NCBI GenBank assembly: GCA_013306675.1
Contig: JABLUY010000021.1
Coordinates: 67,984 to 131,983 of the forward strand
Direction of reading: 5' to 3'
DNA from: Thraustochytrium sp. TN22
Lineage: Eukaryota > Sar > Bigyra > Thraustochytrida > Thraustochytriidae
Length of the DNA stretch: 64,000 nucleotides
The notes under the pieces were generated by a model. That model was not told where the DNA came from, did not search any database, and saw only the letters and a program-made list of their open reading frames with translations. This document shows positions 19,772 through 63,388 of the stretch, one piece after another. A program made the translations under genes and the position numbers. Each line of letters begins with the position of its first letter. Position 1 is the first letter of the stretch.

Positions 19772-19817
19772 GGCGTCGCTGTGTCAATTGCATTCATTTC
19801 CTGTGTACATTTTAAAA

Positions 19818-20360
19818 GCCAGATGGACGGCTCACTCGTCTTGCCGAGCGAAGCCAGATGGACGGCTCACTCGTCTTGCCAAGCGAAGCCAGATGGACGG
19901 CTCACTCGTCCTGCCGAGCGAAGCCAGATGGACGGCTCACTCGTCCTGCCGAGCGAAGCCAGCTCACTCGTCCTGCCGAGCGAAGCCAGATGGAAGGCTC
20001 ACTCGTCCTGCCGAGCGAAGCCAGATGGACGGCTCACGCGTCTTGCCGAGCGAAGCCAGATGGACGGCTCACTCGTCCTGCCGAGCGAAGCCAGATGGAC
20101 GGCTCACTCGTCCTGCCGAGCGAAGCCAGCTCACTCGTCCTGCCGAGCGAAGCCAGATGGACGGCTCACTCGTCCTGCCGAGCGAAGCCAAATGGACGGC
20201 TCACGCGTCTTGCCGAGCGAAGCCAGATTGACGGCTCACTCGTCCTGCCGAGCGAAGCCAGATGGACGGCTCACTCGTCCTGCCGAGCGAAGCCAGATGG
20301 ACGGCTCACTCGTCCTGCCGAGCGAAGCCAGATGGACGGCTCACTCATCCTGCCGAGCGC
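19818..20360. repeat. 35-bp minisatellite with 167-bp higher-order repeat
   Basis: Sixteen tandem copies of a 35-bp unit (core GGCTCACTCGTCCTGCCGAG). Two copies are shortened by 8 bp (near 19960 and 20127). Copies 4-8 (from about 19936) and 9-13 (from about 20103) repeat the same order of variants, giving a five-unit higher-order repeat of 167 bp. The array fills the space between two convergent genes, and its last copy supplies the final codons and stop of the OTU gene. Because 35 is not a multiple of three, the array reads through in several frames; I do not regard these as coding. Confidence 0.93.
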
Positions 20361-26382: not shown

Positions 26383-26878
26383 GCTTGCGTGTATTCGTCT
26401 TTTCATGTCCCTGCCGCACGCTCGCCAGCACGGCAAGACGCCGCAAGAGGATCAGGGGCTCCCTTTTGCGGCCCGCTCCCCTGTATCATGCCATGCCTTT
26501 TCTCGATCAACCCTCGCCTCTGGTCAAGACCATGCAATTCTATATCGATCATCTCATATGAGGCAACGTTATTGTCAGCTTGCCCTGCGTGGCAAGCAAG
26601 TTCTTTCCTCCTCTGCTGACCGTCCACATCTTCAAGTTTTATCTCTTGTCTACTCGTGGCGCCTGCGGCCTCCGCGCCCCCACCCCCGCCGCTCGTGGTG
26701 GCAACATGCGATCATCTCATGTGAGGCAACGTTATTGTCAGCTTGCCCTGCGTAGCAAGCACATGTTCTTTCCTTCTCTGCCGACCGTCCACGTCTTCAA
26801 GTTTTATCTCTTGTCTACTCGTGGCGCCTGCCTCCGCGCCGCCCCCGGCCGCTCGTGGTGGCAAGCAAGACGACCCCG
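26383..26878. other. convergent spacer with duplicated segment
   Basis: AT-richer spacer between the MOB and deaminase genes. Most of it is the tandem duplication listed separately. Confidence 0.6.
26547..26868. repeat. two tandem copies of a 163-bp spacer segment
   Basis: The segment beginning GATCATCTCAT at 26547 recurs at 26710 with a few substitutions and ends with GCTCGTGGTGGCAA in both copies. It lies in non-coding DNA between convergent genes, with short indels near its right end. Confidence 0.9.
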
Positions 26879-52224: not shown

Positions 52225-52372
52225 TATTGCGTGAAATGGCCATTGCGCGAGCGAGTGCAGGGGAGGAGGGAGGGAGGTAAGCTCACTCCACTTGTTTAGA
52301 TCCTAGCGTCGGAAAGGGTCGGCACCGGCGCTGCTTGGTGTGTTCGTTATGCGCTCGCTCGCTCGCTCGCAC

Positions 52373-52477
52373 GGCTCGGCTCGGCTCGGCTCGGCTCGGC
52401 TCGGCTCGGCTCGGCTCGGCTCGGCTCGGCTCGGCTCGGCTCGGCTCGGCTCGGCTCGGCTCGGCTCGGCTCGGCTC
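52373..52477. repeat. (GGCTC)21 pentanucleotide array
   Basis: Twenty-one perfect GGCTC units in the spacer between two convergent 3' ends. The perfection of the array points to recent expansion. Confidence 0.97.
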
Positions 52478-52533: not shown

Positions 52534-55500
52534 TCACACGGCCGGCGGCTGTACGTTGCCGTCCGAAGTTGCAGCATCATCTTCCACGCCGCCGAGCACG
52601 GGGAAGGTCACGTCGCAGTCCAGATCGACCGGGGCACGGTCAATCTCCATAAAGCGGTGGAAATAGCGTGGGATGCCCGTGGACGCGAGCGCGGCGGAGT
52701 CGAGCGCGAGGTCCACGTCCATGTCCTCGCTTGAGTCGCCCGTACGGCCGTGCGAGAGCAGGCTGGCCATGGAGGCGCCGCGGTGCATGGGCTTTCTTGG
52801 GGGCGGCGCGCGGCTTGGCGGCGACTGCGCAAACCTGGGCGGCGACTGCGCACGGCCCGGCGGCGACTGCACGCGCGCGCGCTGCTTTAAAAAGGTTCGC
52901 GCCGCGCGCGCCACACCGCGCTCCTGCACCTCGGCCGGGTCCCGCGGCTCGCGCGCTGCTGCGGGGAGCTGGGCGCCCTGCAGCGGCGCAGGGGCCGAGG
53001 CGCGCTCGCCCCACTGCACGAGGTTGGCCCGGATGTTGCTGATGGCGTGTTCCAAGGCGATGTCCGGGACCTGCGCAAGCACCTCGTACAGCGGCAGCAC
53101 GATGGCATCAATGAAGCCGCTCTGGAAGCGCGAGAGCGGCAGCTCGATGGCGCGGTCCATAAAGGGCAGCACGGGGAGGCCACGCTCTTTTTCTAGGTCG
53201 CCCTGGTTGCGGAACTCGACGCAAAGGCGCTCGGTCCACTGCTGGTACACGGTCCATGGCTTGGCGGATGACGAGATGTCAGCGGCGTGCAGGGCGGCCT
53301 CGAGGATGTGCATCTGCTCGAGGTCCGAAACAATGACGCTGCCGCGCTGCGACTGCGAGTTCTGCAGCGCCTGGGATACCTTGATGAGGCGCCCGACGCA
53401 GGCGTCGTGCTCGGCGTTCTCCGTTGCGAGCACCATGGACACGACGGTCTTGCGGAAGACGAGCAGGTCCTCGGGCGCGAAAGCACAGAGCAGGTTGGCC
53501 CCGGGCGCGTGCAGCAGCTCAAACATGACCGAGGCGTGCATCATCTCAAGCGGCGAGCGGTCGTTGTACCGGATAGCCAGCGGGTGCCAGGTCTGTACCA
53601 GAAAGCTGTTGGTCACGCCCGGATGCGCAACGTCGTGGCCGAGGGCCGCGAACACGGCCGCGAAGCGCACCTGCTCCGAGGCGTACTTGGCCAGACCGCA
53701 CGCGACGAAGAAATGGTTCACGGCCTGCGCCACGTCGGCACCGTGGATGGAGTTATGATACGGGTTCGGCATGTAGCGCGACTGCAGCAGCGTCAGGTAC
53801 CGCAACGCCTCGCGCTCCGGGACGTGAAGCTTGGAAAAGACGCCGTGGCGCTCAAAGATGGCAAAGCCAACGGCCACCAGGGCGCCGCAGGTGGCCAGCT
53901 GCGAGACCACAAAGATGTTGAACTCGTCCCACGAGTCGATCCGCTGCAGCATGGCCACGAGCTTAGCCACCTCGGGCTGCTCTGGCAGGCCGAAATTGGG
54001 CTCGGCCGCCCGGGCGTGACCGCCAGCTGCGGCCTGTGAAACTACCTGGACCGTCTTGTCCAGCACAAAGTACTGAATGGGCGTAAGCGAGCCGGACCTA
54101 CTGTGCAGCAGGCGGCCCACGGGGCCGCCCTCTTCGTCAAGATCCTCGGGCCCGGGCGGGGCCGGGCTGACGGTGACCGGGGCGTTGGCCAATAGGACCG
54201 TTTCCTCGTCTTCGTTGTTGCGCATCTTGTGCTTGGGGGAGACCAGTCGCGGCGGGCTGTGCTCTGGAGACGCGGTGGCCGCTGCCGCTGCCGCTGCCGT
54301 TGTCGCTGCTGCTGTCGCTGCCGCTGCCTTGGTGGGTGTGGACGACACCGTAGGGCTTGCGCGGCCTGGCGACTGCAAAATATGCGCGGCCTCGCGCGGC
54401 CTCGCGCTCCCGTTTTGGGCCAGCGCTGCGAGCACCGAGGCTGGCGAGGGCGAGCGAATCTCACGCGGGCTCACCAGGACGGAGGGGCTGCTCGTGCGTG
54501 TGAGGGCGTCCTCGGAGATGTTGAGATCGGCCTCATCGACAAAGATATCATCTTGCTCGTCCTCCTCGTCGTCCTCGTCCTCCGAGAGCGCCTCCTCGTC
54601 CGAGATGTACACGTCCTTGGCGACACCGGCCGAGACAAAGTCGACGTCACTGGAGGAAAACGCGCGCGCGCGGTGCGCAAGGGAAGTGCGCGCCTGATCC
54701 TTGACAAGCGCGGCGCGGATCGGCGACTCGGGCAGGCTCCGCTTACGCGCGAAGATGGCGGCGCTGGAGAGCGCGGAGTTTGCAGAGGCGTACTTGTCGA
54801 GGCCCAAGAGCACCGGTGAGCTCTGCGTGCTGAGCACGCTCATGTGGCCGGAGCCCACGGAGCGCAGCGAGCGCGCGGACTCGAGGCGCCGCACGGCTGG
54901 CGTGTCGGCGAACTCGTGCAGCAGGTACTGCTTGACATCCTCAGGCAGGGCATCGACCCGGCGCTTGACGTCGTCGACCTCGGGGTCGAGCTGCGCCATG
55001 AGCGCGCGCTGGCACAAGAGGGCCTCGCGCCGCGAGAGCGAGACAGACTGTGACCCCGGGTCACGAGTGATGGCGGCCTCTAGGATGCGCACGGACTCGT
55101 GCAGCAGCTTGGAGTTGTACATTGTCTGCTGCAGCGAGGCGTGCGGCGAGACGGCCGGTCGCGCGAACCCCAGTCCGCGCAGAGGCACGTCGGTGACGGC
55201 CGCCGGCCCCGTGCCGGCGCCCGACGGCGACCTCTTGGTCCTCGCACCGCTGCGCAGTGGCGGCGTCGTCTCCGGGTCGTAGTGCTGGTAGTGGTGATGA
55301 TGACGATGCTGGTTGCGTTGATGGTTGTTGTTGTCGTTGGCGCTGCAATTGATGCTACTTTTGGCATCGTCGGCGCTGCTGCTGTTGTTGTTGTTGTTAT
55401 TGCTGGTGCTGCTGCTGCTGCAGGTGACGTTCTTGCTGTTGTCGGCAGCGCCGGCCAGCTGGCGCCGCGTGGCGCTGGGCGGCGTGGGCGCGGGCGGCGG

Positions 55501-55644
55501 CGGTGACCCGGCCGCCGGCCGCCCACGGCCCTGGCTGCTGCTCCCCTTGCGTTGCAGCCCGGGCGCACGCGGCAGCGCCTGCGGCGTCGTCGCGGTTGTC
55601 GGCGGCGGCGGCGAGGGCGGCGGCAAGTCCCGTGCAGCCCGCAT
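52534..55644 (-). CDS. class I 3',5'-cyclic-nucleotide phosphodiesterase
   Basis: 1,036 residues, intronless. The N-terminal half is disordered: poly-Asn/Ser near 70-110 and an acidic stretch near 340-370 (SDEEALSEDEDDEEDEQDDI). The catalytic HD domain lies at about 590-890, with YHNSIHGADV, GHDVAHPGVTN (the HDxxHxxxN signature), LEAALHAADISSSAKPW (third metal Asp) and the invariant Gln region ERGLPVLPFMDR ... LPLSRFQSGFID. All metal ligands are present, so an active cAMP and/or cGMP hydrolase is expected. I see no GAF, PAS or transmembrane segment, so regulation may lie in the long phosphorylatable N-terminus. Substrate preference cannot be read reliably. The start is an ATG. Confidence 0.92.
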   Translation of the reverse strand: MRAARDLPPPSPPPPTTATTPQALPRAPGLQRKGSSSQGRGRPAAGSPPPPAPTPPSATRRQLAGAADNSKNVTCSSSSTSNNNNNNSSSADDAKSSINCSANDNNNHQRNQHRHHHHYQHYDPETTPPLRSGARTKRSPSGAGTGPAAVTDVPLRGLGFARPAVSPHASLQQTMYNSKLLHESVRILEAAITRDPGSQSVSLSRREALLCQRALMAQLDPEVDDVKRRVDALPEDVKQYLLHEFADTPAVRRLESARSLRSVGSGHMSVLSTQSSPVLLGLDKYASANSALSSAAIFARKRSLPESPIRAALVKDQARTSLAHRARAFSSSDVDFVSAGVAKDVYISDEEALSEDEDDEEDEQDDIFVDEADLNISEDALTRTSSPSVLVSPREIRSPSPASVLAALAQNGSARPREAAHILQSPGRASPTVSSTPTKAAAATAAATTAAAAAAATASPEHSPPRLVSPKHKMRNNEDEETVLLANAPVTVSPAPPGPEDLDEEGGPVGRLLHSRSGSLTPIQYFVLDKTVQVVSQAAAGGHARAAEPNFGLPEQPEVAKLVAMLQRIDSWDEFNIFVVSQLATCGALVAVGFAIFERHGVFSKLHVPEREALRYLTLLQSRYMPNPYHNSIHGADVAQAVNHFFVACGLAKYASEQVRFAAVFAALGHDVAHPGVTNSFLVQTWHPLAIRYNDRSPLEMMHASVMFELLHAPGANLLCAFAPEDLLVFRKTVVSMVLATENAEHDACVGRLIKVSQALQNSQSQRGSVIVSDLEQMHILEAALHAADISSSAKPWTVYQQWTERLCVEFRNQGDLEKERGLPVLPFMDRAIELPLSRFQSGFIDAIVLPLYEVLAQVPDIALEHAISNIRANLVQWGERASAPAPLQGAQLPAAAREPRDPAEVQERGVARAARTFLKQRARVQSPPGRAQSPPRFAQSPPSRAPPPRKPMHRGASMASLLSHGRTGDSSEDMDVDLALDSAALASTGIPRYFHRFMEIDRAPVDLDCDVTFPVLGGVEDDAATSDGNVQPPAV

Positions 55645-56260
55645 CTCCTTTCTCTGCTCGGCGCGGCCTCCGCCTCCCGCCGCGCGCCTGCGCCTGCGCG
55701 GGCAACGGCGGGGCGCGCGCGAGGCCGGAGTCTCGCCGCCCCGCGCTCCGGCTCGCGCCGGCGAGCGAGAGTCGAGGCGGGGAGAGAGACCCAGCCCGAG
55801 CGGGAGGGAAGACCTCTCCAGTTTTGCCGCTCGAGTTTTACGAGTGCGTGAGCGAGCGAACTCTAGCTAGGGCCTAGGCCTGGCGAGCTTGCTACTAGAG
55901 TAGCTAGCTGGAGCGCGAGACCCGGGAGCGCTGGGCCCGGACCGCAATGGGCGAGCCAGCTGCTTCACATCACTGCAGCCAGACACAGCCTGCCAGTTGC
56001 AGCCTTGCCATTCATTCGTCATGGTGATGTGAAGACTCTTCCCGTTCACGTATCTGCTCTGCAACGCGGCGACGCCTTCTCACCTTGTCTTCATCATGCT
56101 GATCATCACGCTTGGAAACTCCTCTCGACTGTCGGGTCTTCGAGAGGTACGCAAGCAAGCAAGCAAGCAAGCAAGCAAGTAAGCAAGCAAGCAAGCAAGC
56201 AGGGCCTCCTAGCTGCTTGGCCTTAGGCCTGGAGAGAATCAAATCAAAGCATTCATCACA
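55645..56260. other. spacer with AAGC array
   Basis: Phosphodiesterase leader, then AT-richer sequence with an AAGC array (56151-56201). The last part is host DNA that, before the transposon insertion, would have been the 3' flank of the DnaJ gene. Confidence 0.65.
56151..56201. repeat. (AAGC)n array
   Basis: About twelve AAGC units with one AAGT variant in the 3' flank of the DnaJ gene, left of the transposon. Confidence 0.93.
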
Positions 56261-58556
56261 ATATCCCAATCACACCTCTATGCTTACTCGTATCCGCCTA
56301 CCACGCGGGGGTCCCTCGGTGACGCCCGGCACAGGGGGCACTAAAGCGTATTAAGAGGGTACTTTACTCCCGATTTGCTCCAAAAAAGTGGCCTAGAGTC
56401 TGGCGAAGTTAGTTCCGCATTCGATCAAAAACGCAGCGATGGGGCCGAGCTTGAAGAGGCCCACTCGAAGCGACCCAAGGCTCCTGCCCCCTATTCATTT
56501 TGGCCGAAGGCGTGGTGGTTAGGATGAGATGAGCTCGGCAGTTCGCCCAGAGCGGCTTTGGGGGGAGCTCGCGCGCGACTTCGTCGCGGAGCGCGCTGGA
56601 GCCGCAGGCGCTGCGGCGCGCGGCTGCAGGCGGCCCTGGCGGGTGCCTTGTGCCTGCTCTCAGCTCGCACGCCCCTGCCGCAGCGCTTGGACGTGGAGTC
56701 GGGCCCGCACTGCGACATCATGGCATCGGCGAGGCCTAACCACCGCGTGGAGGACGACAGCGACAGCGACAGCGACAGCGAGTTCGTGCCCCTGGACAAG
56801 CGGGACACAGGGGACGAAGACGAAGAAGGAGAGGAGCTTGGCGACGAGGATGCTCGTGCTGAGGCCGCTGCGCAGCAAGACTTCGAAGACATACTTGCGT
56901 TGGTCGACGAACCGACGCGTGGTGCGAGTGCATGTTCGAGGTCGGCCTCATTCAGCACAAGACCGTTCCGGGGCTCGCAGTCTCGCCGGATGGAGTCGCT
57001 CGCGTCCGGCTTCCAGGCGCGGAGTGCGACGCATCGTCAGTACTATGCAGCGTCGAGATCAAGACGCGCGTCGCGCCTGGAGGCGCGGTAGACGCACGTA
57101 TCGTGAGCACCCAGATGAACACGTGGGGGACGAGACTTGGTGGAAGGCCATACCTGCCGAGCACCGCGCGCAAGTCTTGCACCAAGCTGTGGTCCTCCAA
57201 ATCGATCACGTGCTCTACGTTGCTGCCAGCACGAGTTCGTGTTTGTACGCCTGCCTCGTTGAAGTGCCTCCGGACGCCCGGCTCGCCATGGAGCGCGCTC
57301 TGAAACCGTGGGCGGACAAGCTCACGACATGGGCGCACCAGAGCATCGACAGCGGGTGCGCCGCCCAAGCCACCTGCCATCTTCGGCGAGGAGGAGGGGG
57401 CGGTGCTGAGCTCGCACTTCCGGCTGTGGCGCGCCATGCGCAAGCTTGTCGCTCTGAAGGGGCCCATGCGGCCCGTGCATGTCATCAAGTGCTTACCGCA
57501 GGAGCTATACAACGTCGCAAAGGGCGGCGTCGACGGAAGCACACAGTACGTGGAGCAGATCACCAACACGCAGTGCATGAATCTGAGCTGCGACCAGAAC
57601 ATCGCGTTGCGCACGTACAAGCAGCTCGTTGTCAACGCCATCGTGGTCTACCGCTACTTACAGGCTGCGAGGAAGAGCAACCTCGAAGACAGCGACGGGC
57701 TAAAGGCCCTCCGCGACAAGGTGAACCGCTCTGAAGCGCTCAGCACTGTCTCGTTCCGCCTCACTGTCGACATGGTCCGTCACGTCTACAGGAGCAGGCA
57801 GCTCGATACGGCGCAGGTGGAGTTCAACATGCAGCCAAGCATGCCCAAGCCCACTGGGCTCACCAGGGAAGCGGCGAGGGACCTCGTGACCGCCGGTAAG
57901 CGCAAGCGAACCCCCGAGTTGCAGAAGTTCTTCAACCACGGCCAAGCCCGCGACATCCGCCTCGATGCCGCACTGCAACATGACTCAGAGGCAGCGGGAA
58001 AGGCATCCTTCAACGCCAACAACAAGAGGATTCCCGCCAAGCGGCTCTGCGTCATCTGCGGCAAGCAAACGCACCGTCGTTGCACCATCTGCGGTGTGCC
58101 TCTGCACGTGTTCATGAGAAAGAATGAACGCACAACCTGCTTTTCCAAGTGGCACACGCGCGTGCGCGTCGAGCCTCACGAAGGCTTCAAGAAGCGCAAG
58201 ACAAACGTCAACGGAACACCTTCGCCCATTTGCCTCGATCATGTCGATTCGAGCAGCGCCAGTGCCTCGTCCGGTACCCCTACAGCGCAGAGCAGGAACG
58301 ACCACGTAGCCCAAGCCAGCTACACCGACACCCCATCAAGCCATAGTTCAAGATCCTCTCGCAGCAGCCTCAGCACGAGTCCATCGTGCCCTTGATGCAG
58401 CCCAAGTTGGCCTCAGCATCCGCACAGGCCAGTCGGAAGTGACCAACACTTTACGCTTCCATACAAACCCAGTAGTTGAAAGTTCCAAAAATGATTAGAA
58501 TCATGATAGCAACAGGTCAGTCGAGCGCAAGCAGGAGAGCCGATTTACTAGGGATA
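56261..58556 (+). repeat. transposon unit 1 (2,296 bp)
   Basis: Begins ATATCCCAATC and ends CTAGGGATA just before the next ATAT. About 450 bases of non-coding DNA precede the split coding region (56720-58395), and about 160 bases follow it. Confidence 0.9.
56720..58395 (+). pseudogene. YqaJ-nuclease / piggyBac-like transposon protein, split frame (copy 1)
   Basis: The coding region runs through overlapping frames, so it is probably decayed unless splicing or frameshifting is used. In order: an acidic N-terminus (56720-56930; EDDSDSDSDSEF), as in piggyBac transposases; a YqaJ-like PDDEXK region with FEVGLIQHKTVPGLAVSPDG (56932 on) and VEIK (about 57050-57065), then IPAEHRAQVLHQAVVLQID in another frame (from about 57145); and a C-terminal part (57361-58395) with ELYNVAKGGVDG, as in the third-aspartate region of piggyBac (GGVD), and a cysteine cluster CVICG, CTICG, CFSKWH resembling the piggyBac cysteine-rich domain. 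The central RNase H-like piggyBac core is not visible. Confidence 0.68.
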
Positions 58557-60852
58557 ATATCCCAATCACACCTCTATGCTTACTCGTATCCGCCTACCAC
58601 GCGGGGGTCCCTCGGTGACGCCCGGCACAGGGGGCACTAAAGCGTATTAAGAGGGTACTTTACTCCCGATTTGCTCCAAAAAAGTGGCCTAGAGTCTGGC
58701 GAAGTTAGTTCCGCATTCGATCAAAAACGCAGCGATGGGGCCGAGCTTGAAGAGGCCCACTCGAAGCGACCCAAGGCTCCTGCCCCCTATTCATTTTGGC
58801 CGAAGGCGTGGTGGTTAGGATGAGATGAGCTCGGCAGTTCGCCCAGAGCGGCTTTGGGGGGAGCTCGCGCGCGACTTCGTCGCGGAGCGCGCTGGAGCCG
58901 CAGGCGCTGCGGCGCGCGGCTGCAGGCGGCCCTGGCGGGTGCCTTGTGCCTGCTCTCAGCTCGCACGCCCCTGCCGCAGCGCTTGGACGTGGAGTCGGGC
59001 CCGCACTGCGACATCATGGCATCGGCGAGGCCTAACCACCGCGTGGAGGACGACAGCGACAGCGACAGCGACAGCGAGTTCGTGCCCCTGGACAAGCGGG
59101 ACACAGGGGACGAAGACGAAGAAGGAGAGGAGCTTGGCGACGAGGATGCTCGTGCTGAGGCCGCTGCGCAGCAAGACTTCGAAGACATACTTGCGTTGGT
59201 CGACGAACCGACGCGTGGTGCGAGTGCATGTTCGAGGTCGGCCTCATTCAGCACAAGACCGTTCCGGGGCTCGCAGTCTCGCCGGATGGAGTCGCTCGCG
59301 TCCGGCTTCCAGGCGCGGAGTGCGACGCATCGTCAGTACTATGCAGCGTCGAGATCAAGACGCGCGTCGCGCCTGGAGGCGCGGTAGACGCACGTATCGT
59401 GAGCACCCAGATGAACACGTGGGGGACGAGACTTGGTGGAAGGCCATACCTGCCGAGCACCGCGCGCAAGTCTTGCACCAAGCTGTGGTCCTCCAAATCG
59501 ATCACGTGCTCTACGTTGCTGCCAGCACGAGTTCGTGTTTGTACGCCTGCCTCGTTGAAGTGCCTCCGGACGCCCGGCTCGCCATGGAGCGCGCTCTGAA
59601 ACCGTGGGCGGACAAGCTCACGACATGGGCGCACCAGAGCATCGACAGCGGGTGCGCCGCCCAAGCCACCTGCCATCTTCGGCGAGGAGGAGGGGGCGGT
59701 GCTGAGCTCGCACTTCCGGCTGTGGCGCGCCATGCGCAAGCTTGTCGCTCTGAAGGGGCCCATGCGGCCCGTGCATGTCATCAAGTGCTTACCGCAGGAG
59801 CTATACAACGTCGCAAAGGGCGGCGTCGACGGAAGCACACAGTACGTGGAGCAGATCACCAACACGCAGTGCATGAATCTGAGCTGCGACCAGAACATCG
59901 CGTTGCGCACGTACAAGCAGCTCGTTGTCAACGCCATCGTGGTCTACCGCTACTTACAGGCTGCGAGGAAGAGCAACCTCGAAGACAGCGACGGGCTAAA
60001 GGCCCTCCGCGACAAGGTGAACCGCTCTGAAGCGCTCAGCACTGTCTCGTTCCGCCTCACTGTCGACATGGTCCGTCACGTCTACAGGAGCAGGCAGCTC
60101 GATACGGCGCAGGTGGAGTTCAACATGCAGCCAAGCATGCCCAAGCCCACTGGGCTCACCAGGGAAGCGGCGAGGGACCTCGTGACCGCCGGTAAGCGCA
60201 AGCGAACCCCCGAGTTGCAGAAGTTCTTCAACCACGGCCAAGCCCGCGACATCCGCCTCGATGCCGCACTGCAACATGACTCAGAGGCAGCGGGAAAGGC
60301 ATCCTTCAACGCCAACAACAAGAGGATTCCCGCCAAGCGGCTCTGCGTCATCTGCGGCAAGCAAACGCACCGTCGTTGCACCATCTGCGGTGTGCCTCTG
60401 CACGTGTTCATGAGAAAGAATGAACGCACAACCTGCTTTTCCAAGTGGCACACGCGCGTGCGCGTCGAGCCTCACGAAGGCTTCAAGAAGCGCAAGACAA
60501 ACGTCAACGGAACACCTTCGCCCATTTGCCTCGATCATGTCGATTCGAGCAGCGCCAGTGCCTCGTCCGGTACCCCTACAGCGCAGAGCAGGAACGACCA
60601 CGTAGCCCAAGCCAGCTACACCGACACCCCATCAAGCCATAGTTCAAGATCCTCTCGCAGCAGCCTCAGCACGAGTCCATCGTGCCCTTGATGCAGCCCA
60701 AGTTGGCCTCAGCATCCGCACAGGCCAGTCGGAAGTGACCAACACTTTACGCTTCCATACAAACCCAGTAGTTGAAAGTTCCAAAAATGATTAGAATCAT
60801 GATAGCAACAGGTCAGTCGAGCGCAAGCAGGAGAGCCGATTTACTAGGGATA
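58557..60852 (+). repeat. transposon unit 2 (2,296 bp, identical to unit 1)
   Basis: Every predicted open frame of unit 1 recurs here 2,296 bases later with the same translation; I saw no difference. This means very recent duplication or an assembly artefact. Confidence 0.92.
59016..60691 (+). pseudogene. YqaJ-nuclease / piggyBac-like transposon protein, split frame (copy 2)
   Basis: Identical to copy 1, including where the frames change, so any decay happened before the duplication. Same domain order: acidic start, YqaJ-like PDDEXK region, GGVD region, cysteine cluster. Confidence 0.68.
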
Positions 60853-62041
60853 ATATGGCTATCCTGATTAAACTCCGTCTAGGGCGATGGGATTGGGATA
60901 TGGCTATCCTGATTAAACTCCGTCTAGGGCGATGGGATTGGGATATGCTGGCGAGCTGCTGCTTCTGGTCGGGCGTGAGCGAAGTAGGGAACTGAACCTC
61001 AAAGGTGACGCGCAAGTTGCCGAACTGGCTAGGCACCTCGTGCACCGGCATGCCCTCATCGGGCAGCGTGATTGTCTCAAAGGGCTTGGTGATCTTGCCC
61101 TGGCGGTCGATCTCAACCTCGTGATCGTCGAGGTGCTTGAAGGTCCGGGTAAAGCCGGTGAGCGCCTCCTTGAGCGAGATCTTGATGGTCATGGTGAGGT
61201 CATTGCCGTCGCGCTGGAAAATGCGGTGGTTCTGCTGCACGAGCACGAGCACAACGTCGCCCGGAATGCGCTTGGGCGTCTGCTCGGACATGTACTTGAG
61301 GCGGATCTCCTGGCCCTCCTGCATGCCACGCTCGATATGCGCCGTGAGCGTCTTCTGCTCGTTCTTGCACTTTTCCGTGGATGGGATCTCCTCCTCCTGC
61401 TGCACGATAAAGCCGCCCATTTGCCTCTGCACGAGGCGGCGCTCGTTGGGACAGCGGCCGCACGAGGCGCAACGCGCCTTGGCCTTGGCGCTGAGGTCGG
61501 GCTTGTTGCAGCGCGCGCACACAACCCTTCGGTTGATGCGCGTGTCCTTCTCGGAGCCATTGTAGAGCTCCTCCAGCGTGACCTTGAGGCGCATCTGATA
61601 GTCGCCGCCGCGGTTGCCACGTTGCATGCCGCCAAAGAACCCGCCGAACATGCCGCCGCCCGCCGCGCCGCGTTCTTCCTCGGCCTCGGCCTCGCGCACG
61701 AGCGCCATCCCGCCCTGGTCGAAGAGCATCTTCTTCTCCTCGCTGGACAAAACCTCGTACGCGAAGGACGCCTCGCGGAACTTGTTCTCTGCATCCTCGT
61801 CGTCCGGGTTGCGATCCGGGTGGTACTTGAGCGACAGCTTGCGGTACGCCGACTTGATCTCCTTGGGCGACGCGTCCTCGTCCAGGCCCAGCACCTCGTA
61901 CAGGTCAATCTCCTCCACGGCGGGCGGCTCTCGCGCGCGCCGCCGCCCGCCCCCGCCCCCGGGGAAGAACGCCTCGGTCTGCTGTGCCACCAGCGCGGCC
62001 AGCAGCGTGCACAGCCCGGCGGCCGCCGTCGTCGCCCTCAT
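60797..62041 (-). CDS. DNAJB11: ERdj3/DNAJB11-like ER co-chaperone with transposon-derived tail
   Basis: 414 residues as now read, from the ATG at 62041. A cleavable signal peptide (1-24, MRATTAAAGLCTLLAALVAQ) leads into a J domain (about 46-110) with HPD at 74-76, a Gly/Phe/Met stretch, and a substrate-binding region with CARCNKPDLS and CASCG cysteine pairs, then GDVVLVLVQQNHRIFQRDGN and LPDEGMPVHEVPSQFGNLRV. This fits ERdj3/DNAJB11, an Hsp70 (BiP) partner in the ER lumen. Residues 367-414 come from the inserted transposon, including two copies of a 15-residue repeat. Without the insertion the protein would end LASIL at 367. An open frame upstream to 62440 is Arg/Ala-rich and would bury the signal peptide, so it is not used. 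Confidence 0.9.
   Translation of the reverse strand: MRATTAAAGLCTLLAALVAQQTEAFFPGGGGGRRRAREPPAVEEIDLYEVLGLDEDASPKEIKSAYRKLSLKYHPDRNPDDEDAENKFREASFAYEVLSSEEKKMLFDQGGMALVREAEAEEERGAAGGGMFGGFFGGMQRGNRGGDYQMRLKVTLEELYNGSEKDTRINRRVVCARCNKPDLSAKAKARCASCGRCPNERRLVQRQMGGFIVQQEEEIPSTEKCKNEQKTLTAHIERGMQEGQEIRLKYMSEQTPKRIPGDVVLVLVQQNHRIFQRDGNDLTMTIKISLKEALTGFTRTFKHLDDHEVEIDRQGKITKPFETITLPDEGMPVHEVPSQFGNLRVTFEVQFPTSLTPDQKQQLASISQSHRPRRSLIRIAISQSHRPRRSLIRIAILSLVNRLSCLRSTDLLLS
60853..60942. repeat. two 45-bp tandem repeats at the right transposon end
   Basis: Perfect 45-bp direct repeat (ATATGGCTATCCTG ... GATTGGG) twice, followed by ATAT. In the DnaJ direction each repeat encodes 15 in-frame residues (SQSHRPRRSLIRIAI), so the DnaJ frame now runs through both. 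The right inverted repeat of the transposon lies at the end of each unit. Confidence 0.93.
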
Positions 62042-63388
62042 TTCGCCTGCGCGCTGCTCGCTGCCGCGGCCCTCCTCCTTCTCCTCGTCCTCCTCGTCCT
62101 CCTCCTCCTTCTCGCAGGACCCAACGTTCTGGTCCTCGCGCTGCGGACCTCGCTGCCGCGCCTCGCGAGCGCTCCGAGCGCCGCGGCCAAGGGGCGCTTG
62201 GGGCCGGCGCCGCGCGCCTGCCTGCCTGCCTGCCCGCCTGCGACCCGCGCCGCAGCCTGCGCGCGCCGACTCGGCGCGCGGCCGATGGAAGGATGCGAGC
62301 GAGAAGGGGTCTGCCGCCGCCGGCGCGGTGCCGCCGCGGCCGAGACTCCGGCGCCAAGCTGGCACGGGCACTCTGCGTGTCGCCGCGCGCAACGCTCGCG
62401 CGGCGCCCTGCCTCGCACGGGTGCCGCGCACGGGGCTCACGCGCGCCCTACCCCCCCCCTCATTAAATGGGCTGGAGAGTAGTCTGGAGCGTGGACCTGC
62501 TCGGCATTGTCGCGATCAAGGTCGCCACTGGCATGTATGCGCGGCCACGGACGGAGTTCAAGTTATGGTGGACCGCGCGGCGTCATCTGCTGTGTCTTCA
62601 AGTCACATTGCATCGCATGAGCCGGAGCCGCCACCGCATCGAGAGAAAGCCGACCTCGGCACATGTGCGGCTGCGCATTGTGCGACGACATGTCATGACT
62701 GTCAGTACGTCTGCGCGTTGCCGCGGACGGAATTGTTTGGTGGACAACTGTCGTCTGCTGTGTCTTGCATTGCATCGCATGAACCGGAACCGCCACCGCA
62801 TCGCGAGAAAGTCGTCTCGGCACATGTGCGGCTGCGCGAATGTCATGTCCTGACTGTGAGTACGTCTGCGCGAAGGACTCGGGCCGCCTCGGGCCGGCCT
62901 GGGCAAGATTCCCATCCAAGCTTGCTTGCCACGGTCTCCACGAACTCGTCTCGCATCGTAAAAGGCGTGGAAGCGCAAATCCCGCGCCTCACCAAACGAA
63001 AAGGCACCACAGCATCATCTTCTGCAGCGAGGAGCTGAGCGAACCTAGCTAAGAACTAGCCCCAGTCCGAGTCATAAGCACGCGTGAGCTCTCAGCTCGG
63101 CCGCGGCTGTCGTGGCGACTTCGTGCCGCTCGCCTCGCCGTCGTCGCGCATGGCCGTCTTGGACGGCGTGTTGACGTGAAGCCCAGGCCGCCGTGCTTGC
63201 GCTGCAACGGCCTGCGGACAGCATAAGTGGCTCAGCGCGGAACCTGGCGGGGCGAGCAGGCAGGCGAGCAAAGCAGGCAATCCGAGTTGGCCGCCGAGCG
63301 AGGCTCGATCGATCGATCGGGCGATCGATCCGGGCGGCTGCGCGCGGAGGGGCCGGCGGCGCGGGCGCGGGCGCGAGGCTCGGCGAGG
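62042..63388. other. divergent spacer with imperfect duplication
   Basis: DnaJ leader with GCCT repeats (62216-62230), then an imperfect duplicated segment (listed separately), then leader-like GC-rich DNA before the last gene. No gene seen. Confidence 0.6.
62536..62873. repeat. imperfect tandem duplication of about 165 bp
   Basis: The stretch CTGCTGTGTCTT ... CATTGCATCGCATGA ... GGCACATGTGCGGCTGCGC ... GTACGTCTGCGCG occurs at about 62536-62703 and again at 62711-62873. Spacing between matching points is 162-175 bases because of indels, so it is older than the identical transposon units. Confidence 0.88.

Follow-up and report, generated by a model that had tools for sequence, protein, structure and literature searches.

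The ends of piggyBac elements begin 5'-CCC, and the RecE, lambda-exonuclease and YqaJ nucleases share the catalytic motifs E-x-G-L, SPDG, EIK and Q-x-x-HQ. The closest precedent for a transposon that encodes such a nuclease is ISL2EU, of the PHIS superfamily, a DNA transposon which, in the available parts of its descriptions, combines a YqaJ exonuclease domain with a DDE transposase (PMC4482050, PMC9179366). In ISL2EU, as far as these parts describe it, YqaJ is encoded in a separate, second ORF, the target duplications are AT, the ends usually begin with GG and the transposase carries HTH/THAP domains. What the additional ORFs in ISL2EU and related elements do is still unknown according to the authors of the partly available PMC4482050. 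KolobokP and KolobokD are likewise DDE transposons that acquired an extra nuclease, but these nucleases are a small His-Me finger and a DEDDh nuclease, and the elements belong to another superfamily (PMC9587614, in the part available). A YqaJ domain inside a piggyBac-like transposase is undescribed in the literature searched, which was covered at the level of titles and abstract openings, with most subscription papers outside its scope.

The element described here is found in Thraustochytrium sp. TN22. Like piggyBac (6x67) and piggyBat (9c0f), it has CCC ends, a palindromic 4-bp duplication, an acidic start and a C-terminal Cys cluster that resembles theirs by spacing. Its GGVD motif may correspond to the third Asp of piggyBac, which is D447 in 6x67, and the family matches DDE_Tnp_1_7 below threshold. 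Unlike piggyBac, it targets ATAT (with ATAA, ATAG, CTAT and TTAT tolerated) rather than TTAA, its predicted protein has about 1,200 residues rather than 594, and the interval between the presumed second and third Asp, which in piggyBac contains a different insertion domain, is occupied by a YqaJ-like domain. The RecE/lambda-exonuclease/YqaJ motifs (PHROG 434, PF09588, LHK-Exo 3syy) are present, but the domain appears to be inserted in a transposase and is too divergent for the Pfam YqaJ model. The arrangement of ISL2EU does not apply, since YqaJ and transposase parts occur in single frames, with an ATAT duplication and CCC ends. These elements probably represent a family of piggyBac-like transposases into which a lambda-exonuclease-type domain has been inserted ahead of the third catalytic Asp, the short copies being non-autonomous derivatives.

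The window, a 64,000-nt stretch to which the coordinates below refer, belongs to a genome of 37.9 Mb in 453 contigs (labels such as C151 denote contigs of this genome). The element is 2,337 bp long and runs from CCCAATCACACC to GGCGATGGGATTGGG, so that its ends read CCCAATC...GATTGGG (Table 1). A 2,301-bp unit repeats with 100% identity at 58556-60856. In the genome, the element is matched by DNA search at 57 places at least (40 of 101 candidates scored), while its C-terminal frame is found at 99-100% identity at 112 or more (112 of 136 scored), two of which are the long copies on C109 and C394 described below. The left-end pattern, with up to two mismatches, occurs at 120 places, versus none for the reversed pattern. 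The element is a recently amplified, non-autonomous DNA transposon with about a hundred short copies in the genome.

Table 1. Features of the nested elements in the window
Feature	Position	Strand	Basis or remark
ATAT, left target-site copy of outer element	56261..56264	+	sequence; matching ATAT at 60943-60946
Outer element, positions 1-2296, with the inner copy inserted into its single ATAT	56265..58560	+	
Acidic N-terminal segment, frame 2 from ATG	56720..56920	+	in long copies upstream of DDE-like part, 998-aa frame
Putative deletion junction, without 1,771 bp that in long copies cover the core region and the N-terminal half of YqaJ	56921..56928	+	coordinate arithmetic: C394, C109, C81
YqaJ-like part A, frame 1: FEVGL, SPDG, VEIK	56929..57120	+	
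Putative second deletion, 19 bp, approximate place	57118..57126	+	375 bases here versus 394 in C394 and C109 between the same points; codon switch 57122
YqaJ-like part B, frame 0: QVLHQ	57123..57360	+	
Frame change 0 to 1, common to long copies	57350..57376	+	
363-aa C-terminal open frame that holds GGVD (presumed third catalytic Asp) and the Cys domain	57304..58395	+	
ATAT target of inner copy, duplicated at 60898-60901	58557..58560	+	uninterrupted site in other copies
Inner complete 2,337-bp element, CCCAATC...GATTGGG	58561..60897	+	
Broken coding region of inner copy (offset +2296)	59016..60691	+	
ATAT duplicate and final 41 bp of outer element	60898..60942	+	
ATAT, right target-site copy of outer element	60943..60946	+	

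The target duplication is 4 bp. Among 24 single copies with both flanks, taken from 60 copy-holding loci, 20 have identical 4-bp flanks (17 ATAT, two ATAA and one ATAG) and the other four have flanks that differ by one base (ATAT/CTAT, ATAT/ATAA, CTAT/ATAT and TTAT/ATAT); TTAA flanks occur in none of the 24. Excluded from this sample are clustered copies and those that carry an additional right end, located on C11, C111, C133, C177, C18, C233, C255, C325, C37, C46, C52, C61 and C79. The outer flanks that are readable in these are ATAT/ATAT (the window pair, C255 and C111), CTAT/CTAT (C46), ATAG/ATAG (C61), ATAT/CTAT (C37) and, as a poor fit, CTAT/ATAG (C52). The alternative of a duplicated TA and ends starting TCCC was rejected in view of the ATAA/ATAA and ATAG/ATAG sites. 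According to the available part of PMC7351741, hairpin opening in piggyBac leaves a 4-base overhang; since it does, the one-base mismatches could arise if the overhang from the old site is sometimes kept, a connection that we infer.

ATAT occurs a single time in the element, at position 2293, which is 41 bp from the right end, and in the window the inner copy sits in this site of the outer copy, the last part of which is found at 60902-60942. The tandem is a nested insertion, which gives a direct view of the ATAT target before and after its duplication. Close neighbours make up 47 of the 112 C-terminal places, each lying within 500 bp of another such place, and 13 neighbouring pairs are nested as in the window. 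Outside the element ATAT occurs 15 times in 59,200 bp of the window, or about 9,600 times genome-wide by crude extrapolation. Since the site is scarce in host DNA, the element's own ATAT is a fair share of all targets, and the nesting rate observed is roughly ten times the expectation from this share. An extra 45-bp right end follows the copies at C255:154076-154121, C111:12321-12366 and C325:14972-15017; those on C255 and C111, for which no second left part is available, resemble nested pairs from which recombination has removed one copy.

Beside the tandem, a DnaJ-type gene with a J domain and DnaJ_C (60797-62515, minus strand) runs into the transposon, and the last codons and the stop of its frame come from the element's right end (60797-60946), so that the outer insertion seems to have replaced the C-terminus of the gene. 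The window also holds a 35-bp minisatellite of about 16 copies (19816-20359), a 165-bp tandem duplication of about two copies with 91% matches (26546-26864) and an array of about 26 GCTCG pentamers with 97% matches (52353-52477), just beyond the 3' end of a PDEase_I gene (52534-55866, minus strand).

The original prediction listed an acidic start, a FEVGLI/SPDG/VEIK region, a continuation, a GGVD motif and a Cys cluster at 56720-58395. All of these are found there, in four pieces in shifted frames separated by three frame changes, and not in one open frame. The acidic stretch starts in frame 2, FEVGL (56935), SPDG (56983-56994) and VEIK (57052-57063) are in frame 1, QVLHQ (57171-57185) is in frame 0, and GGVD (57523-57534) and the Cys cluster (58048-58155) are again in frame 1, which stays open through 58395. 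A path computed independently from codon usage, for which two host genes and the C151 frame served as training set, gives the order 2/1/0/1 as well and places the switches near 56913, 57122 and 57375. Its score of 48.6 is far above the maximum of 2.5 in 200 dinucleotide shuffles and the 0.0 of the reverse strand, which indicates that the region was coding until recently.

The origin of the first two frame changes is suggested by longer copies of the element. A search of the genome with YqaJ part A gives 119 places, 112 of the short type. The remaining ones are C81, C109 and C394, each in a 998-aa frame at 100% identity, C33 in a 339-aa frame at 94%, and three divergent ones in frames of 1213-1248 aa. 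In the long copies C394, C109 and C81, the acidic segment, a segment like the C151 core and YqaJ-A share one 998-aa frame; on C394 the three occupy 151780-152043, 152299-153375 and 153823-154014, and the C-terminal part, at 154217-155305, is in a different frame. The core-like segment has 28% identity to C151 (query 51-408, spanning both candidate Asp, E 7.1e-7), and the complete YqaJ region of the three copies matches C151 at 34% (E 2.7e-40), the match ending at the frame change. Relative to the long copies, the short copy is without 1,771 bp at window position 56920, a figure that is the same from C394, C109 and C81, and without 19 bp near 57122, as calculated from C394 and C109. As judged from match coordinates, and not from the letters of the long copies, the short copy would thus be an internal-deletion derivative that has lost 1,771 and 19 bp of a longer element.

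This longer element would be about 4,127 bp, if its end offsets match those of the short copies. This length is supported by neighbouring short copies, one of which lies exactly 4 bases from the left end predicted for the C81 copy (9403) and another exactly 4 bases from the right end predicted for the C394 copy (155514). The left ends of the long copies are absent among the left-end matches listed, which are 100 of the 120 at up to two mismatches, so their left 30 bases must differ from those of the short copies by more than two mismatches. It had been suggested that the central core was replaced by the nuclease. This is not borne out, since the long copies have a DDE-like region upstream of YqaJ and the short copies appear to be their internal-deletion derivatives. 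A further form may exist on C48 (80493-82136), where a 625-aa open frame with matches of 75% to the acidic start and 91% to the Cys domain is absent from the YqaJ-A matches listed; it may be another in-frame deletion form or a host gene that arose from the element.

Introns were rejected as the cause of the first two frame changes, since both coincide with the deletions relative to the long copies, and also at the third, where the C151 protein is equally long by inspection and leaves no room for one. The C-terminal part is out of frame in all four long copies, and no copy near-identical to that in the window has the whole protein in one frame among the matches listed. The third change, near 57350, may be due to a single altered base, to programmed frameshifting or to a systematic error of the assembly.

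More distant members of the family have the parts in single frames. YqaJ and the Cys domain share one open frame in six divergent paralogs, C239 (1213 aa), C232 (1248), C151 (1227), C322 (1227), C111 (1064) and C11 (3580), in which the Cys-domain matches are in frames of the same length as, and in register with, the YqaJ matches. Identity to the window Cys domain is 47% in C239, 42% in C111 (602776), 40% in C232, 38% in C151, 36% in C322 and 29% in C11 (134517), the last being a weak match (E 7.4e-4). The C11 open frame, with its YqaJ and weak Cys match at 134517-136829, is far longer than those of the other paralogs. A 352-residue query from YqaJ to the D3 (GGVD) region of C151, for which 115 of 240 candidates were scored, matches C239, C81/C109/C394, C33, C232, C11, C322, C407, C4 (two places), C111, C332 and the short copies among those scored. 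C239 is aligned at 31% (E 4.5e-44) up to position 338 of 352, beyond the D3 motif. C332 has its YqaJ match in a 1403-aa frame; C332, C407 and C4 are absent among the Cys-domain matches listed.

Because single open frames of six divergent paralogs hold both domains, the pairing of YqaJ and Cys domain is to be regarded, from these sequences, as genuine. This agrees with the proposal that a YqaJ-like nuclease and a piggyBac-like C-terminus are paired in one transposon protein; a separate accessory protein, which had been offered as the alternative, is not borne out, since the open frames of the paralogs hold both parts together. Of the intact order YqaJ, GGVD and zinc cluster looked for, YqaJ and the Cys domain stand in six frames, while the D3 region between them is seen in the same frame in C151, from the letters, and in C239, from the alignment. 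A chance composite, in which two unrelated genes became joined in a pseudogene cluster or through misassembly, could be suspected from the broken frames and deletion junctions of the window copies, but it is contradicted already by the six paralogs (29-47% identity to the window Cys domain), which do not have the two halves as separate genes, and can be set aside as extremely improbable.

The arrangement of the parts is clearest in C151, where the letters of 965 of its 1,227 residues are in hand. TIDDR (281) and CLDRG (349), assigned by eye as D1 and D2, are followed by an acidic linker (553) and by a YqaJ-like domain with QRCMDW (636), GNEGSQ (699), FDIGL (733), SADG (749), LKAK (772) and QLLHQ (817). 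KDCVDD (934) comes after this domain, so that the candidate order is D1-D2-YqaJ-D3, with YqaJ between the presumed second and third catalytic Asp, as expected if the core were joined to the nuclease. C151 and the window are 33% identical over the YqaJ region and 32% over the GGVD region. C322 matches C151, in the same frame as its YqaJ, in the region N-terminal to D1 only (query 45-203, E 2.3e-9). The Glu of the EIK motif is changed in C151, which suggests that nuclease activity may not be needed in every lineage. The idea that the core has lost its catalytic role and that YqaJ now moves the element is compatible with the motif residues kept in the window family, but in C151 the three candidate Asp are retained and the YqaJ Glu is gone, and clean 4-bp duplications are a usual product of DDE strand transfer and not of an exonuclease; this explanation is highly improbable.

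The YqaJ assignment itself was to be checked by profile, and the outcome depends on the model. The Pfam YqaJ model (PF09588) matches neither the window pieces nor C151, and across the genome it recovers the C78 gene alone, while PHROG 434 (RecE-like exonuclease) matches the window YqaJ composite, in which X marks the frame break, at E 5.3e-4. In the whole genome PHROG 434 has two matches only, the ordinary YqaJ gene on C78 and C239 (E 1.3e-4); on C151 alone it gives E 0.32. The residues that are catalytic in the YqaJ/RecE-like nucleases, D, ExK and Q, have their counterparts in SPDG, VEIK and QVLHQ of the window family. Alignment of query A1 with the C78 YqaJ by hhalign, from a shallow alignment, covers 14 columns at the SPDG motif (probability 1.2), and a scan of the PDB brings up TEVGLID..SPDGL of LHK-Exo (3syy) at E 0.82, no evidence by itself. 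The window pieces give nothing useful against Pfam, NCBIfam and the PDB, and scans of viral contigs found no intact relatives. YqaJ part B of the window (E 0.016) and that of C151 (0.025) also match, below threshold, the Pfam model of SgrT, a short protein of bacteria; this was taken as chance similarity.

Profiles were also to identify the piggyBac parts. DDE_Tnp_1_7 (PF13843) has no match on the window pieces and matches C151 only below its cut-off (16.0 and 19.1 bits versus 22.4; E 0.0078 on the protein), over model positions 3-90, N-terminal to the candidate catalytic Asp. It is the sole Pfam transposase family that matches C151, and the last of its four matches in the whole genome falls within the C151 frame (E 0.012). 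Matches above the cut-off are found in three long open frames (850-1016 aa) on C398, C16 and C76, which may be host genes derived from piggyBac; their second catalytic Asp is unrecognisable by eye in the alignment. The genome's three PF13843 ORFs gave nothing with hhalign, from shallow alignments. With a profile of piggyBac and piggyBat, the window GGVD region (19 residues aligned) is equalled by 11 of 20,000 shuffles of the window C-terminal frame and stands out, and its C151 counterpart, equalled by 654 of 5,000, does not. Home-made shallow piggyBac profiles do not pick up the C151 core, its D3 part or residues 41-140 of that C-terminal frame, and broader ones recognise neither the window GGVD region nor its C151 counterpart. 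The Cys domain, CxxC..CxxC..CFxxWH, has a piggyBac-like spacing by eye and is conserved in the paralogs. The piggyBac cysteine-rich profile (PF13842) has no match to these loci among the genome matches listed, and the Cys piece of the window no piggyBac match in the PDB. An AlphaFold2 model of the window C-terminal frame has a pLDDT of 35.5, and its fold is unusable.

A YqaJ protein from a non-piggyBac DDE superfamily, PHIS/ISL2EU-like or undescribed, in which a YqaJ accessory ORF was fused to the transposase and GGVD and the Cys domain are convergent, would explain why the piggyBac profile scores below its cut-off with the catalytic Asp uncovered and why the target is ATAT and not TTAA; ISL2EU, in the available text of PMC4482050, is moreover an established case of DNA transposons that encode a YqaJ protein. 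The AT duplications and GG ends that the same text gives for ISL2EU argue against this origin, as do the sole Pfam transposase match of C151, to DDE_Tnp_1_7, and the CCC ends, palindromic 4-bp duplication, acidic start, GGVD (the 11 shuffles above) and Cys domain, which in combination fit piggyBac, so that such an origin appears unlikely. The TTAA target of piggyBac is missing, but the acidic start, CCC ends, palindromic duplication, GGVD and C-terminal Cys domain taken together fit a piggyBac element, and membership is likely as a judgement from several weak, separate features. Since the PF13843 and C322 matches miss the catalytic Asp, confidence is set slightly lower both in the piggyBac-like family with its inserted nuclease and in the broader proposal given below.

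If the piggyBac-like reading is adopted, the parental protein would have about 1,200 residues, with an RNase H-like core carrying the first two Asp, a YqaJ-type domain, the GGVD Asp and a piggyBac-type cysteine-rich domain. In the window's family an acidic N-terminus would precede the core, and the region before YqaJ would be the RNase H-like core with D1 and D2. This core would cleave and join the ends as in piggyBac, while the nuclease domain may trim DNA ends, either the transposon 5' ends or the donor break, or stabilise the transpososome. The short copies, which are without the core and half of the nuclease, would be moved in trans by the full-length transposase through cut-and-paste. In the near-identical long copies the third Asp falls in a different frame, so that these would need frameshifting to supply the enzyme. 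Its source may be these long copies, by frameshifting or after correction for a systematic sequence error, a lost or unassembled intact copy, or a paralog acting across families.

On balance, and with less assurance than for the inserted domain itself, we favour the view that a transposase with two nuclease folds, having the lambda-exonuclease-type domain between the second and third Asp, defines an undescribed piggyBac-related clade that shifted from TTAA to ATAT, has several lineages in one genome and underwent a recent burst that produced about a hundred deletion copies in one of them. If YqaJ does lie inside the catalytic core of a transposase, an exonuclease would be tied directly to the transposition complex, and its purpose could be tested in one protein. 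It would also widen the range of insertions that an RNase H-like transposase fold can accept, and would provide a piggyBac-like enzyme that targets ATAT.
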